64,000 nt of DNA from Planctomycetota bacterium (GTDB taxonomy: Bacteria > Planctomycetota > UBA1135 > GCA-002686595), in the NCBI GenBank assembly GCA_020847695.1, contig JADLBP010000323.1, forward strand, positions 1 to 64,000. The letters are read 5' to 3'. Within the stretch, counting starts at the first letter, position 1, and each line of letters opens with the position of its first letter. Under the pieces are notes generated by a model. It saw nothing but the letters and a program-made list of their open reading frames with translations, ran no database searches and was not told where the DNA came from. The translations under genes and the position numbers were made by a program. Shown here in pieces: positions 22,106-28,145 of the stretch.

Positions 22106-23386
22106 TCAGCGTTGAGCGGCGGTCTTCCAGCCCGGGAAGAGCTCGTCGAGGTCGTGTTTCTCGATCACCGGCTGACCGCGCTCGTCGCGTTCCGCGAGCG
22201 TGAACGTGCAGCCGCTCAAGACGACGCCGTTGGGAGGATCCGTGAAGAAACCCTCGGGTTCGCGCGTGCCTGGGAAGCTGCAACGATCGAACACGAGCGT
22301 CGCGCGCTCCTGCAGATGTCGACTGGGGACGTCCAGGTTCGCGAGGACACAGTTCTCGAAGCGCGCGAGCAGCGCCGAGGTCCGCACGTCGAAGAGCGAG
22401 CCGCTGCTCGGGTGCCTTCCGTAACCGACCTCGATCCGCGAGTCGCGAACGAGCCACGCGCTGCCGCGCGTGTCGAACGCGGACGAGCTGCCTGCGCCGC
22501 AGTCGAACCCGACGACGCGCACGCGCTCGAGCACGACGGTCGCCGGGTTGGTGCGCAGGTCGAAGACGTTGTCGGCGTAGATCGTCGCGTCGCTGATCTC
22601 GATGCGTTCGAGCACATCGCGCGCGTGCAGCGCTTCCCAGACGAGCAGTGTGCGATCCATTCCCGCGCCGCGCAGCGCGAGACAGCGCGGGAACCGTCTG
22701 CCGCCGTTCACGTTCGACAGCGCAACGCGATGGACGCCCGCGCCCCAGCGCAACTCGGCACCGTCCGGCACGGGCGTGTCGCGGTTGGCGGCGAGCGTCG
22801 CACCCTCGAGCACTTCGCCGCTGACGCCGCTCTTGCAATCGAAGAGCTTGGCGAAGCGCTCGGCGTCGCCGACGAGCTCGACGAACGGACCGACTTCGTC
22901 GCGCTCCATGCATTCGAGCAGCGTGAACGCATCCGCGGAGGCGAGCGCGTTCGCGAGCGCTTCCGCCTGAGTCGCCGCCTCGGCGAGGCGTGTGCCGATC
23001 GCGTCGGGCAGGGCGAGCACCTCGGCCCGGAATTGCTGCCAGCCCGCGTCGAGCGTCGCCTGGGGAATCGGCTGCGAGCGCAGCTTGCGCCACGCGGCTT
23101 CGATGCCGTCGCGCGCGTAGCGCTCGAGCGCTGCGGAGAAGAGCGGGTCGGCGCTCGACGACGCCGACGAGCCGCGAGCAGCGGGCGCATCCGCGGTTTC
23201 GCGCTGAGCTTCCGTCGTCGCGACGACCAGTTCGGTCGGCGGCGGGGTGCGCGCAACGGGAGCGCCGTCTGCGTCGAGCGAGCCCTCGTCCGACGAACTC
23301 GCCGGACCTGAGCGAAGCCCGAAGAACGCCGCGGCGGATCCGAAGCCCACGGCGAGTCCGACGACGAGTGCGAGCGGAGACTTCAT
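22106..23386 (-). CDS. Membrane-anchored or secreted protein with beta-helix-like C-terminal half
   Basis: A 426-residue protein of unrecognised family. It starts with a hydrophobic anchor or signal (LALVVGLAVGFGSAAAFFGLRSG), followed by a low-complexity Ser/Ala/Pro segment and a helical region (residues ~80-180). From about residue 200 it has short repeating beta-strand units with buried Val/Leu and polar turns (RIEISDATIYADN, RVRVVGFDCGAGS, DSRIEVGYG, NCVLANLDV, RCSFPGTREP, GCTFTLAERD), which suggests a right-handed parallel beta-helix. Start at 23386 gives the hydrophobic N-terminus. Function unknown. Confidence 0.7.
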   Translation of the reverse strand: MKSPLALVVGLAVGFGSAAAFFGLRSGPASSSDEGSLDADGAPVARTPPPTELVVATTEAQRETADAPAARGSSASSSADPLFSAALERYARDGIEAAWRKLRSQPIPQATLDAGWQQFRAEVLALPDAIGTRLAEAATQAEALANALASADAFTLLECMERDEVGPFVELVGDAERFAKLFDCKSGVSGEVLEGATLAANRDTPVPDGAELRWGAGVHRVALSNVNGGRRFPRCLALRGAGMDRTLLVWEALHARDVLERIEISDATIYADNVFDLRTNPATVVLERVRVVGFDCGAGSSSAFDTRGSAWLVRDSRIEVGYGRHPSSGSLFDVRTSALLARFENCVLANLDVPSRHLQERATLVFDRCSFPGTREPEGFFTDPPNGVVLSGCTFTLAERDERGQPVIEKHDLDELFPGWKTAAQR

Positions 23387-23639
23387 TCGCCCAGCGTGCC
23401 GCGCCGCGCCGCGCCTGTCGAGTCTTCGAGGCCGGTCGAACGGATCGAACGCGCTTCGACCCTCGTTCGGCGAGTCGGCCGCGTCGTCGGGGACGCGAGT
23501 CCGCTCTGCCGAGCAGATGAATCGCACGTGCTCATGGTCGGACAACCGCTCGCGTCGACGTGCTCTCGACTCGGACCCGCGTCCTTTCGCGGCGACGGTT
23601 CGCAGCGGCCGACGGAGACGCGGCGCGCCGAGGATCCGC

Positions 23640-24167
23640 TCAGATCGAGCCGTCGGGCATCACGCGGCCGTCGGCGCCCCACTTGTCGCAGTCCGCGTCT
23701 TTGCCCGGAACTCGACCGCACAGAGAGTCCCCGTGGTACGTCGTGAAGCCGTCCTTCGATCCGGAGACCATGCCGCAGTCCGAATCGGTGTTGGACTTGC
23801 CCTCGGGAGTGAACGACGCGCAATCGTCGTCGGACGAGACCTCGAGCTGAGCGCTGAAGCTCAAGGGCATCGCGCAGTCGTAGTCGCCGGGCGATTGCTG
23901 GTAGTTGCACTCCGCGTCGATCAGCAGCACGCCGTTCTCGTTGTACTTGCCGCAGCCGTCGTGCGGCGGCGGGAAGTCGAGCCCGCAGTCGTACCATTCG
24001 CACGACTTGTCGTTGAAGGCCCTCGCCAGCCGAGTGCCGCCGAAGAGGAACACGAAGTTCGTCAGAGCGAGCCGGCGCAACAGTTCGCGTCGGTCGCGGG
24101 GCTCTCCGTCCTGAGCTGCTTCGTTCGGTTCGGGTCGCTGCTGTTCGTTGGGCTGTTCGGCGTTCAT
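23640..24167 (-). CDS. Cys/Asp-rich small protein coupled to a radical SAM maturase (candidate modified-peptide precursor)
   Basis: A 175-residue protein. Residues 1-50 look like a leader: an acidic/Gln-rich stretch, then DRRELLRRLALTNFVFLFGG with a twin-arginine-like and hydrophobic segment ending in GG (43-44). The remainder contains nine cysteines at 56, 61, 72, 87, 98, 116, 131, 150 and 160. Seven are in D-x-x-C (DKSC, DAEC, DYDC, DDDC, DSDC, DSLC, DADC); the other two have Asp at -1 or -2. The ATG overlaps the stop of the radical SAM gene (ATGA). By analogy with the QhpC/QhpD system, where a radical SAM enzyme forms Cys-to-Asp/Glu thioethers, this may be the substrate. That is inference; a metal-binding secreted protein is the alternative. 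Confidence 0.72.
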   Translation of the reverse strand: MNAEQPNEQQRPEPNEAAQDGEPRDRRELLRRLALTNFVFLFGGTRLARAFNDKSCEWYDCGLDFPPPHDGCGKYNENGVLLIDAECNYQQSPGDYDCAMPLSFSAQLEVSSDDDCASFTPEGKSNTDSDCGMVSGSKDGFTTYHGDSLCGRVPGKDADCDKWGADGRVMPDGSI

Positions 24168-25699
24168 GGCTTGCTGTCTCCGTGTGCAGGGGGCGCACTC
24201 CGCTCGCCGGCCGGAGTCGACGTGGACTCAGCCTCGATCGCTGCGAGCCAGAGCAGTCGTTCGGTGCCGCGTCGGATCTCGTCGCAGCTCGCGTCGTCGG
24301 GAGTTCCCACATGACCGTCGGGGCGCGACAGGTACCACGGGCACTGGCCGCCGCAGATCGCGCGGGCCCAGCAGGCGGAGCAGTGCCGGTCGTATCCGTC
24401 GAAGATCTCGGCGAAGTAGCGGCCGAGGCGTTCGCGGTCGATACCGGTGCTCAGAGTCCCGATCCGGTAGCTCTCCTCGCCTGCGTAGCGGTGGCAGGGA
24501 TACAGATCGCCGTGCTCGGTTACCGCGGTGGTGTTTCGACCCGTGCCGCACATCGGAGTGCGACGTACTTGCAGCCCCGACGCGAGACCGTCGCGCACGC
24601 GCTTCAGCCCTGCGCTGAAATCGAATCCGAGCGGAGGGCGAACCGTATCGTCTCTGCGCGACTCGAGATACTGGTCGAGCGCACGTTCGACATCGGCGTT
24701 CGCAGAGGCGGTCTCGCTGCCTCCGAAGTCGGTCCAGCGTTTCTCGTGCGCGCGGCCATCGCTCGAACCGATCATCGTGCGCTGGAAGTCATTCTCGGCG
24801 AAATACCCTGCGACGGCTTCGCGTGATGGATTCTGCTGTGTCAACGTCGCACGGATCATCGCTTCGCGCATTCCGGCTGCCCGCTGCGCGGCGATCAGCC
24901 TGCGAGCATTGGCGACCGCTTTGGCGGTCGTTCCCCGTCCGGCGTGATCGATACGTTGCCGATCGGCGAACTCAGGCGGCCCGTCGATGCTCACCATCAC
25001 GGCAAATCGGTGCTCGACGAGGAAGGCAATCTTCTCGTCGTCGAGCAGCGTTCCGTTGGTGGTCATTCGGAAGCCCACCGTCTTGCCGAGCTCTTCGGCT
25101 CGCACGTACGCCCGAGCGACCAGCTGCCGCACGAGCGCGAAGTTGAGCAGTGGCTCGCCTCCGAAGAACGTGATGTCGAGGTGCTTGCGCTTGCCAAGAC
25201 GCTGGAAGAGGAGCTCGAGCGACTGGAGCCCCGCGTCCAAGGACATCGACTTGCCGGTGTCGTGGAACTTGGCTGCGACTTCGTAGCAGTAGGTGCACTT
25301 CAGGTTGCAGGAGGTCTGGACGAGAACCTGTCCCGAGCGCGTCGGCAGCTCGATGTGTCGGCGGATCGAGTCGTCGCGTTCCTCGGGCGTTTCCAGTCGT
25401 TCGAGGACGAACAGGCCGAGATCGGCGAGCATCGTCACCTCCGCGAGGACGCTCTCGAGCGTCACGCCGCCGAAGTCACGCGTCAACCGGTCGGCGAGCA
25501 GCTCCGTCAGCTCGGCGTGCTCGAAGCCGCGGAGGAGCTCGAACGCCGCGGGGCTCGGTTGGAGCAACGAGCCGCTGTAGAGGTCGTACAGGATCCGGCG
25601 CCCGCGGTACTCGAAAGCATGGAACGTCGGTCGCTCGGGCGCGATCCGTTGGCGCAGTTCGTCGAGAGCGAGGCACAACGATTCCAGCGTGGCTTGCAT
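24164..25699 (-). CDS. Radical SAM/SPASM peptide maturase
   Basis: A 511-residue radical SAM enzyme. An N-terminal ~110-residue segment precedes the core and could bind a substrate peptide. The SAM-binding cluster is C131-x3-C135-x2-C138 (CNLKCTYC). FFGGEPLLN and TTNGTLL follow as expected. The C-terminal SPASM region has Cys384, 402, 440, 443, 449, 453 and 472, including C-x2-C-x5-C-x3-C, enough for two auxiliary Fe-S clusters. The domain plan matches peptide maturases such as QhpD, PqqE and anSME-like enzymes. ATG at 25699 has AAGGAG four bases upstream. It is translationally coupled to the Cys/Asp-rich gene. Confidence 0.9.
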   Translation of the reverse strand: MQATLESLCLALDELRQRIAPERPTFHAFEYRGRRILYDLYSGSLLQPSPAAFELLRGFEHAELTELLADRLTRDFGGVTLESVLAEVTMLADLGLFVLERLETPEERDDSIRRHIELPTRSGQVLVQTSCNLKCTYCYEVAAKFHDTGKSMSLDAGLQSLELLFQRLGKRKHLDITFFGGEPLLNFALVRQLVARAYVRAEELGKTVGFRMTTNGTLLDDEKIAFLVEHRFAVMVSIDGPPEFADRQRIDHAGRGTTAKAVANARRLIAAQRAAGMREAMIRATLTQQNPSREAVAGYFAENDFQRTMIGSSDGRAHEKRWTDFGGSETASANADVERALDQYLESRRDDTVRPPLGFDFSAGLKRVRDGLASGLQVRRTPMCGTGRNTTAVTEHGDLYPCHRYAGEESYRIGTLSTGIDRERLGRYFAEIFDGYDRHCSACWARAICGGQCPWYLSRPDGHVGTPDDASCDEIRRGTERLLWLAAIEAESTSTPAGERSAPPAHGDSKP

Positions 25700-25854
25700 G
25701 ACGCTCCTTCGCGACGTCTCGGCCTCGTGCACGTGGAGCGCGGGATCGCTGTCGCGCACGACGACCTCGGGGAGTACGTCGGTGAGTGTCGGCTGCCCGC
25801 GAGTTGGTTTGCGGACCTCGAAAAATCGCTCGCGGTGCGGCCGAGAGAGCCGAC

Positions 25855-27699
25855 TCAGCGCTTCGGCAGCGCGGTCGGGGCGGGGAGTTCCTCGCCCGGG
25901 TTGACGAAGCGCTCGTGCTCGAAGGCGTACTGACGGTCGTGCAGCTCTTTGTAGCGGCCGGCTTTTGCCAGCAGCTCGGCGTGCGTGCCGCGTTCGACGA
26001 TCTTGCCGTGCTCGAGCACCAGGATCTGGTCGGCGGAACGGATCGTCGAGAGCCTGTGCGCGATCACGAACGTCGTCCGGCTGCGGCGCAGGTTCTGCAG
26101 CGCGTCCTGGATCTTGAACTCGCTCTCGGAGTCGAGGCTCGACGTCGCTTCGTCGAGGATCAGCACCCTCGGCCTCGCGAGCAACGCCCGCGCGATCGCG
26201 ACGCGTTGGCGCTGGCCGCCGGAGAGCTTGATGCCGCGCTCGCCGACGATCGTGTCGTAGCCCTTCTCGAACTGCGCGACGAAGTCGTCGCAGTGCGCGA
26301 GGCGACACGCTTCCTCGATCTCCGCGCGCGTCGCGTCCGGGCGCGAGAACGCGACGTTCTCCGCGATGGTGCCGTCGAAGAGGAAGTTGTCCTGCAGCAC
26401 GACGCCGAGGTGCGCGCGGAAGTCGGCGAGCTTGAGGCTCGCGAGGTCCTTGCCGTCGACGGTGATCCGGCCGGACTTCGGGCGATTGAACGCCATCACC
26501 AGGCTGACCAGCGTGCTCTTGCCGGAGCCGCTGGAGCCGACCAACGCCGTCGTCGAGCCCGCGGGCGCGGTCAGCGAAACGTGCTCGAGCACCGGCTTGC
26601 CTTCGTCGTACTCGAACGACACGTCCTCGAACGTGAAGTCGCCTCGCAAGTCGGGGCACGCCGCGCGTTCGGCGTCGTGCTCGTCCTCGCGCGCGACGCG
26701 CCGGATCTCGCGCAGGCGATCGAGACCGGCGAACGCCTCGCTGATCTGGGTGCTGATCGACGCGATCTGCACCAGCGGTCCGACGACGAGCCCGATGAAC
26801 ACCAGGTACATCACGAAATCGCCGAGCGACATCTCCCCGGCGAGGATCGCGCGGCCGCCGACCAACGTCAGGATCACGCCGACGACGCCGACGATCGCGG
26901 TCGACACCGACGTCGTCAGCGACACGCCCATCATCGAGCGCCGGATGTTGTCGAAGAGCTTGTCGACGCCCGCCGAGAACACGCGTTCCTCGTGCTCCTC
27001 CGCGACGTACGCCTTGACGACGCGCACGCCGCCGAGCGTCTGCGTCAACCGGCCGCTGATGTCCGCCTGGATCTTGCCGCGCTCGCGGAACAAGGGCCGC
27101 AGCGTCTTGAACGCCTGCGTCATCGCGAGCCCGAAGATCGACAGCACGACCAGGATGATCAGCGTCAGCTTCCAGTTCAGGTAGAACAGCACGCCGATGC
27201 CGAGCACCGCCGACAACACGCCGCCGACGAGCTGCACGATGCCCGTGCCGACGAGGTTCCGGATGCCTTCGGCGTCGTTCATGATCCGCGAGATCAGCAC
27301 GCCGGTCTGCGTCGAGTCGAAGTAGCGCACCGGCAAGCGACCGATGTGCGCCTGCACCGTCTTGCGCATGTCGTTGATCGCGCGCTGCGCGGCGACGCCG
27401 AGCACTTGGCTGAGCCCGTACCCGGTGACCGCTTGCACCAACGTCGCGACGCCGCCTGCGATCGCGATCGGCCACAAGAGCTCGGCCTTGCCCTTGCCGA
27501 CGACGTCGTCGATCAGGATCTTCGAAGTCGCGGGCAACACCAGGCCCGCGAGTCGGCTGATCAACATCAAGAACAGCCCGATCAGCAGACGCTGCTTGTG
27601 CGCCGCGACCAGCTCGCGCGTCTCGCGCCACGCGTCCGAGAGCTTCGGTTTCTTCTTCTCGCCCGCGATCTTCTGGGCGGCGGTCGACGGGGCGGCCAT
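25855..27699 (-). CDS. ABC exporter (fused membrane and ATPase domains, MsbA-like)
   Basis: A 614-residue half-transporter. The N-terminal ~330 residues carry six helices. The nucleotide-binding domain has Walker A GSSGSGKST, signature LSGGQ, Walker B VLILDEATSSLD and the His loop AHRLST. It could be an MsbA-like lipid flippase. Its position 155 bases upstream of the radical SAM gene on the same strand is also compatible with export of a modified peptide, as for QhpF in the quinohemoprotein system. It has no N-terminal C39 peptidase domain. Its ATG overlaps the upstream gene's stop (TGATG). Confidence 0.92.
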   Translation of the reverse strand: MAAPSTAAQKIAGEKKKPKLSDAWRETRELVAAHKQRLLIGLFLMLISRLAGLVLPATSKILIDDVVGKGKAELLWPIAIAGGVATLVQAVTGYGLSQVLGVAAQRAINDMRKTVQAHIGRLPVRYFDSTQTGVLISRIMNDAEGIRNLVGTGIVQLVGGVLSAVLGIGVLFYLNWKLTLIILVVLSIFGLAMTQAFKTLRPLFRERGKIQADISGRLTQTLGGVRVVKAYVAEEHEERVFSAGVDKLFDNIRRSMMGVSLTTSVSTAIVGVVGVILTLVGGRAILAGEMSLGDFVMYLVFIGLVVGPLVQIASISTQISEAFAGLDRLREIRRVAREDEHDAERAACPDLRGDFTFEDVSFEYDEGKPVLEHVSLTAPAGSTTALVGSSGSGKSTLVSLVMAFNRPKSGRITVDGKDLASLKLADFRAHLGVVLQDNFLFDGTIAENVAFSRPDATRAEIEEACRLAHCDDFVAQFEKGYDTIVGERGIKLSGGQRQRVAIARALLARPRVLILDEATSSLDSESEFKIQDALQNLRRSRTTFVIAHRLSTIRSADQILVLEHGKIVERGTHAELLAKAGRYKELHDRQYAFEHERFVNPGEELPAPTALPKR

Positions 27700-28145
27700 C
27701 AGACGCGCAGCCAATCCGCTTGCCAGCCCTGGATGCGCCGCTTGACGTCGTCGGGTCGCTCGAACTTGCCCGCGAGCACGTCGCCGAAGAGCCCGGGGAG
27801 CTCCGCGTCGCTCGCGAAGCGCAGCGCGACGAGCCACGGCACGCCGACGCGTTCGATGTCCGCGCGCCGCGCCGCACCGAGCACGCGCTCTAGCCTCAGC
27901 CGCATCTCGAGCCGGATCACGCGGTCCTGCACGATCTGCGCGCGACGACGGCTCGCCCACCACGTCACGATCAGCGCGATCGGCACCAGCACCTCGAAGC
28001 CGTTCCAGAAATCCGGCGCCTCTTTGAGCAGCCAGGCGCGACGGCCGAGCTCGATCACGAGCACCACCCCTGCGAGCGCGTAGCCGGTGCCCGGCCACGC
28101 TCGGTGATTCCCGAAGGACTGCGGACGCGCGGAAACGGTGCTCAT
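27699..28145 (-). CDS. DUF6526 family membrane protein
   Basis: A 148-residue protein with two membrane helices near the N-terminus (TGYALAGVVLVIELGRRAWLL; VLVPIALIVTWWASR). The soluble C-terminal part, QDRVIRLEMRLRLERVL ... LVALRFASDAELPGL ... RRIQGWQADWLRV, agrees with the DUF6526 family as I know it. Function is not established. It is the first gene of the operon running into the ABC exporter, with a one-base stop/start overlap. Confidence 0.8.
   Translation of the reverse strand: MSTVSARPQSFGNHRAWPGTGYALAGVVLVIELGRRAWLLKEAPDFWNGFEVLVPIALIVTWWASRRRAQIVQDRVIRLEMRLRLERVLGAARRADIERVGVPWLVALRFASDAELPGLFGDVLAGKFERPDDVKRRIQGWQADWLRV

Follow-up and report, generated by a model that had tools for sequence, protein, structure and literature searches.

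Background

PapB, the maturase of the ranthipeptide freyrasin, modifies C-X3-D motifs of its precursor PapA by linking Cys to the Asp beta carbon (PMC9413430), and the carboxylate of the acceptor is required for this reaction (PMC8172795). PapA is a short peptide which receives six such links. In QhpC, the gamma subunit of quinohemoprotein amine dehydrogenase, three Cys-Asp/Glu links are made by QhpD (PMC7876137). Here, the modified molecule is a whole exported protein, which also contains the CTQ cofactor and exits via the ABC transporter QhpF after removal of its leader. In both of these characterized substrates, Cys is N-terminal to the acid acceptor. In the streptococcal NxxcA/NxxcB system, NxxcB forms a bond between Cys23 and the Asn20 beta carbon (PMC8326336), i.e., the acceptor is located three residues before Cys and a single small ring is formed in a short peptide. 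CteB acts on CteA, a SCIFF peptide (thermocellin) of ~45 residues from Clostridia, in which the acceptor is Thr.

Here, we analyzed a locus in a 64,000-nucleotide stretch of planctomycete DNA (the window), which encodes a Cys-rich protein with D-x-x-C motifs next to a radical SAM/SPASM maturase; this protein and its homologs are referred to below as the DxxC family. PapB is the nearest maturase by NCBIfam score, and the family resembles freyrasin, in which an acid acceptor is required, in having many Cys-Asp pairs with fixed spacing. However, its motifs are D-x-x-C rather than Cys-first, up to 18 of them occur per protein, the proteins are 171–352 aa long and have a twin-arginine signal, and the maturase scores below the PapB cut-off. 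The QhpC/QhpD system is similar in that thioethers are placed in a whole exported protein by a related maturase, but the order of acid and Cys is opposite to that of D-x-x-C, and no dehydrogenase subunits were among the common neighbors of DxxC genes. The Cys23-Asn20 spacing of NxxcA is that of the D-x-x-C motif, although the acceptor, ring number and peptide length differ. Similarly, CteB provides the nearest solved structure, whereas its substrate differs in acceptor, size and host. No account of a DxxC family was found in the titles and abstracts of open-licence papers on planctomycete ranthipeptides, Tat-exported RiPPs and DxxC radical SAM substrates.

Results

A Cys-rich precursor and its N-terminal segment

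The features of the locus are listed in Table 1. Cys residues of the precursor occupy positions 56, 61, 72, 87, 98, 116, 131, 150 and 160, spanning 105 residues. Asp is found three residues upstream, designated Asp(-3), of Cys 56, 87, 98, 116, 131, 150 and 160; the two exceptions are C61, with Asp at -1, and C72, with Asp at -2. These positions agree exactly with a preliminary description of the protein, which reported nine Cys over about 105 residues, seven with Asp(-3) and the others with Asp at -1 or -2. Its coordinates (23640–24018) had to be corrected, as the gene starts at 24167 and the N-terminal 50 residues had been omitted. When the 125-residue core was shuffled, at least seven D-x-x-C motifs appeared in 3.5e-5 of the shuffles, and at least seven Asp-Cys pairs at any fixed offset from -9 to +9 in 3e-4. 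The terminal half repeat, MPDGSI, retains Asp without Cys.

Table 1. Positions of the precursor, the maturase and adjacent features in the window
Feature	Position	Strand	Remarks
DxxC precursor (putative substrate) protein	23640..24167	minus	175 aa, 9 Cys, 7 with Asp at -3
Core with D-x-x-C repeats	23640..24017	minus	residues 51-175; ends in half repeat MPDGSI
Twin-arginine signal-like segment RRELLRRLALTNFVFLFGGTRLARA	24018..24092	minus	residues 26-50
Radical SAM/SPASM maturase	24164..25762	minus	ATG at ~25699; ATGA overlap with precursor start
MsbA-like ABC transporter	25855..27750	minus	upstream of maturase

This ORF is a real gene: homologs with the same architecture exist, and its start codon overlaps the stop codon of the preceding maturase gene (ATGA within CCATGA). 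The precursor matched no family in Pfam and NCBIfam, and a PDB search with it yielded nothing real. Its AlphaFold model (mean pLDDT 55.7, pTM 0.20) had no ordered core, and the protein is predicted to be disordered outside of the signal helix.

This helix, which corresponds to residues 26–50 in the model, lies in the N-terminal region that had been overlooked. Hydropathy analysis revealed a hydrophobic stretch and an AxA site in this region, and the twin arginines were invariant in all 14 precursor homologs. TatC is encoded in the window's genome; the precursor has the features expected of a Tat substrate, namely twin arginines preceding a hydrophobic stretch in an organism with a Tat system. 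The segment is probably a Tat signal, and it is possible that it also serves as a recognition element for the maturase.

The partner radical SAM/SPASM maturase

The maturase contains the radical SAM motif CxxxCxxC (residues 152–159) and SPASM Cys residues at positions 405, 423, 461, 464, 470, 474 and 493, all of which were invariant across six aligned homologs. The top NCBIfam models were PapB (NF047865; 225 bits, cut-off 340), QhpD (TIGR03906; 223 bits, cut-off 453), nif11-like peptide maturase (215 bits) and SCIFF maturase (TIGR03974; 202–203 bits, cut-off 425). The enzyme scored below the curated cut-offs of all four models and was therefore not filed as PapB, QhpD or SCIFF. By sequence, the closest solved structure was CteB (1.3e-81 with the family profile and 9e-50 with the protein alone), which was also the closest by fold (Foldseek 7e-23 with the AlphaFold model, pLDDT 77). 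In this model, residues 47–114 form an N-terminal beta-beta-beta-alpha-alpha-alpha domain, a three-strand, three-helix layout which we take to be that of the RiPP recognition element (RRE). In PADLOC, the maturase matched nothing more specific than viperin-like radical SAM entries.

Distribution and linkage of the two genes

In 1,553 genome searches with the precursor and the maturase, in which some genomes were counted more than once, 14 maturases of the clade were found in 12 Planctomycetota genomes, with a scattered occurrence among several families; none was detected in the other examined species of the window's own genus. Next to each of the 14 lies the gene for a protein that has 6–18 D-x-x-C motifs and begins with a twin-arginine segment. 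The precursor profile matched nine of the 154 genomes of the window's class, exactly the nine that possess a clade maturase. This co-occurrence test is not entirely independent, as the neighborhood of the maturase was where most precursors were initially identified. Phylogenetic analysis placed the 14 maturases in one clade (SH-aLRT 97) and 21 QhpD proteins of the same phylum in a separate clade (100). True QhpD/QhpC pairs also occur in the window's class, apart from the DxxC pairs: at L036, L074, L075 and other QhpD loci of its planctomycetes, QhpD adjoins QhpC-like gamma subunits. Many rows of QhpD-like relatives had one internal TGA, but selenocysteine was dismissed as an explanation, since the profile overruns each gene's own stop codon.

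No other neighboring gene was common to all loci of the family. The MsbA-like ABC transporter was rejected as a part of the module because none was present at any other locus, and kinase, sulfatase and FG-GAP genes were each found at only 2–4 loci and were also rejected. The gene following the precursor (22106–23401, minus strand; 431 aa as scanned) has no counterpart among Pfam and NCBIfam families and is absent from the neighbor groups common to several loci. Pfam and NCBIfam searches with the 14 precursors gave no convincing match. There was no peptidase, immunity or dedicated exporter gene common to the loci, and we therefore judge a bacteriocin less likely.

The maturase ORF of G024 (L064:4700-5740; 346 aa) is without profile positions 112–178, including the CxxxCxxC segment, and the adjacent precursor is intact; this gap is either a real deletion or an assembly error. 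In Pla86, an intact DxxC gene is followed by a second one (L007:8494-9462), which starts without the twin arginines, is interrupted by an in-frame stop and reads DLDRG where one Cys has been lost; it resembles a duplicate in decay.

Conservation of Asp-Cys pairs

Across the family, Asp(-3) is present at 161 of 178 core Cys residues (90%, versus 14% Asp overall) and missing at 17. The next most constant positions are Gly at +1 (49%) and Asp at -1 (45%), and nearly half of the motifs read D-x-D-C. The distance between successive Cys ranges from 1 to 27, and the core Cys number is odd in 9 of the 14 members. In six pairs of homologs, identity was 65/66 at Asp(-3) and 61/64 at Cys, compared with 16/66 at -2, 40/64 (62%) at -1 and 239/725 at other core positions. 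The contrast with Asp(-3) is not an artifact of alignment anchoring, as the anchored block includes position -2 as well. Thus, the expectation of the preliminary description that Asp(-3) and Cys would be conserved together despite variation of the intervening sequence was borne out. Its proposal of a bond between each Cys and a nearby acidic residue gains support from this conservation together with the adjacent maturase, whose closest models are PapB and QhpD; the maturase, which the preliminary description had not noticed, is the strongest evidence. As in ranthipeptide systems, a radical SAM/SPASM maturase is encoded beside a Cys-rich precursor in which Cys-acceptor pairs are conserved at a fixed spacing.

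Related loci with other spacings

The sister of the DxxC clade in the maturase tree (support 92) is the enzyme of G299, whose neighbor (L060:1-466) is a twin-arginine protein of near-identical tandem repeats. Asp is located at -2 (D-x-C) in 12 of 12 Cys, a count that refers to the sequenced part, since the precursor is cut by the contig end. Comparison of G299 with the DxxC clade indicates that the Asp-Cys pair persists while its spacing changes with the enzyme. G643 (L070:2030-2893) was considered as a D-x-C relative. Its twin-arginine, Cys-rich protein has 27 Cys, 22 of which show the forward spacing C-x-x-D, and its maturase is related but falls outside the DxxC clade. It was therefore rejected as such a relative and appears to represent a separate PapA-like system. 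In G410 (L071:5849-6283), a related SPASM maturase is found beside a precursor with an NHLP/nitrile-hydratase-like leader; this locus was set aside, as an NHLP-type precursor denotes a different system.

Discussion

We consider it likely, judging from the sequences, that the two genes form a crosslinking module, in which the precursor receives Asp-Cys thioethers from the maturase while still cytoplasmic and the product is exported, probably by Tat. The maturase would bind the N-terminal region of the precursor, probably via its RRE-like domain, and generate a 5'-deoxyadenosyl radical. Each motif Asp would lose a hydrogen from a carbon of its side chain, most likely C-beta, and a Cys thiol bound at an auxiliary Fe-S cluster would be joined to this carbon. 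The result would be one S-C(beta) thioether per D-x-x-C motif, i.e., ~7–9 in the window protein and up to 18 in its relatives. The twin-arginine signal would then direct export, most likely via Tat, which takes pre-folded or pre-crosslinked chains. Outside the cytoplasm, the product may have a rigid, acidic, extracellular or periplasmic role, as a redox-stable, disulfide-free scaffold or ligand-binding protein. Several points weigh against this reading: the maturase scores below the PapB and QhpD cut-offs, Cys precedes its acid acceptor in QhpC and PapA, 17 of the 178 core Cys have no Asp(-3), and the G024 precursor is intact beside a maturase ORF that has lost its CxxxCxxC segment.

Several other explanations were weighed. 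The D-x-x-C repeats might bind metal or calcium, with free Cys thiolates and Asp carboxylates coordinating periplasmic ions and the radical SAM enzyme doing something else. The strongly acidic cores, the frequency of D-x-D-C and a weak match of one family member to Pfam PF11617 MopE (E = 0.048) are consistent with this idea, but it leaves unexplained why a thioether-type SPASM maturase is invariably found alongside and the fact that Asp(-3) alone is invariant, whereas -1 is only 62% conserved. The preliminary description had seen no His or CxxC pattern suggestive of metal sites, and indeed there is none. We regard this explanation as improbable; crosslinked motifs could still bind ions, and ion binding is therefore better seen as one possible function than as a complete alternative. 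Still less probable, in our view very unlikely, is an ordinary disulfide-bonded secreted protein in which D-x-x-C reflects local turn geometry. A signal-like N-terminus and a Cys-rich core would fit such a protein. However, core Cys numbers are mostly odd, Cys-Cys spacing is variable, Asp pairing is strict and a SPASM maturase is present at every locus. The preliminary description had named a confident disulfide model as an argument against Asp-Cys links, and the low-confidence AlphaFold prediction, without a confident fold, provides none. It is also conceivable that the enzyme forms S-to-C(alpha) links, as in sactipeptides, or makes another radical modification, and that Asp serves only in recognition. 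Sactisynthases are among the SPASM maturases, and models of sactipeptide maturases such as RumMC also matched the enzyme, with lower scores. However, the best matches (PapB, QhpD and CteB) make links at carbons other than alpha, and PapB, which requires the carboxylate, is characterized by just such an invariant acid acceptor. Accordingly, we find this possibility unlikely, though slightly less so than ion binding.

A more serious question concerns bond polarity within the same thioether chemistry. Each Cys could be linked to the next Asp downstream, in which case the protein would consist of tiled C...D loops and D-x-x-C would be a fixed two-residue linker between them. The known Cys-first order in QhpC (C7-E16, C27-D33, C41-D49) and PapA (C-X3-D) agrees with this arrangement. 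Moreover, the first Cys is without Asp(-3) in 7 of 14 members (in six of these, the stretch from the signal to the first Cys is devoid of Asp), and Asp follows the last Cys in all 14 tails, several of which resemble half repeats (MPDGSI, HSDDSI, HIDNG); several proteins have both half repeats. Heads without Asp and tails with Asp are what tiled loops would leave at both ends. In the window protein, all nine Cys have an Asp downstream before the next Cys, and C-G-D-C is conserved in G252 and G503. However, the chance probability of Asp in all 14 tails is 0.08, and this is therefore weak evidence. The constant distance in the family is that from Asp to the following Cys (161/178), whereas Cys and the next motif Asp are separated by a variable distance (4 to 24, peaking at 12), and the ring inside the motif is therefore favored. 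In addition, the more distant relative G643 has fixed the forward C-x-x-D spacing, which suggests that constant spacing marks the linked pair, and NxxcA is a precedent for an acceptor at -3. On balance, we modestly favor a ring inside D-x-x-C over loops to the downstream Asp, which are a real but lesser possibility.

The comparative data support the view that DxxC proteins are an undescribed, unnamed family of radical-SAM-crosslinked exported proteins of the ranthipeptide/QhpC-like kind. Since the DxxC protein is always found beside a radical enzyme of the Cys-Asp type, it is probably exported with up to ~18 unbreakable sulfur links. We more tentatively suggest a new class, in which a Tat-exported chain has up to 18 four-residue D-x-x-C rings with the acid upstream of Cys, opposite to PapB and QhpD, and covalent rings alone hold its shape; this fuller description is somewhat less likely than not.

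If true, the proposed chemistry would mean that radical thioethers occur not just in short peptides and a single dehydrogenase subunit but also across a family of exported proteins (171–352 aa), with more crosslinks than in the characterized cases compared (six in freyrasin and three in QhpC). The D-x-x-C, D-x-C and C-x-x-D spacings beside related maturases constitute a natural series on how the enzyme chooses ring size and direction. The maturase would also be an enzymatic tool for producing protein scaffolds that are redox-stable and free of disulfides, and the family would be a case where crosslinking in the cytoplasm may ready a chain for Tat, the exporter of folded proteins.
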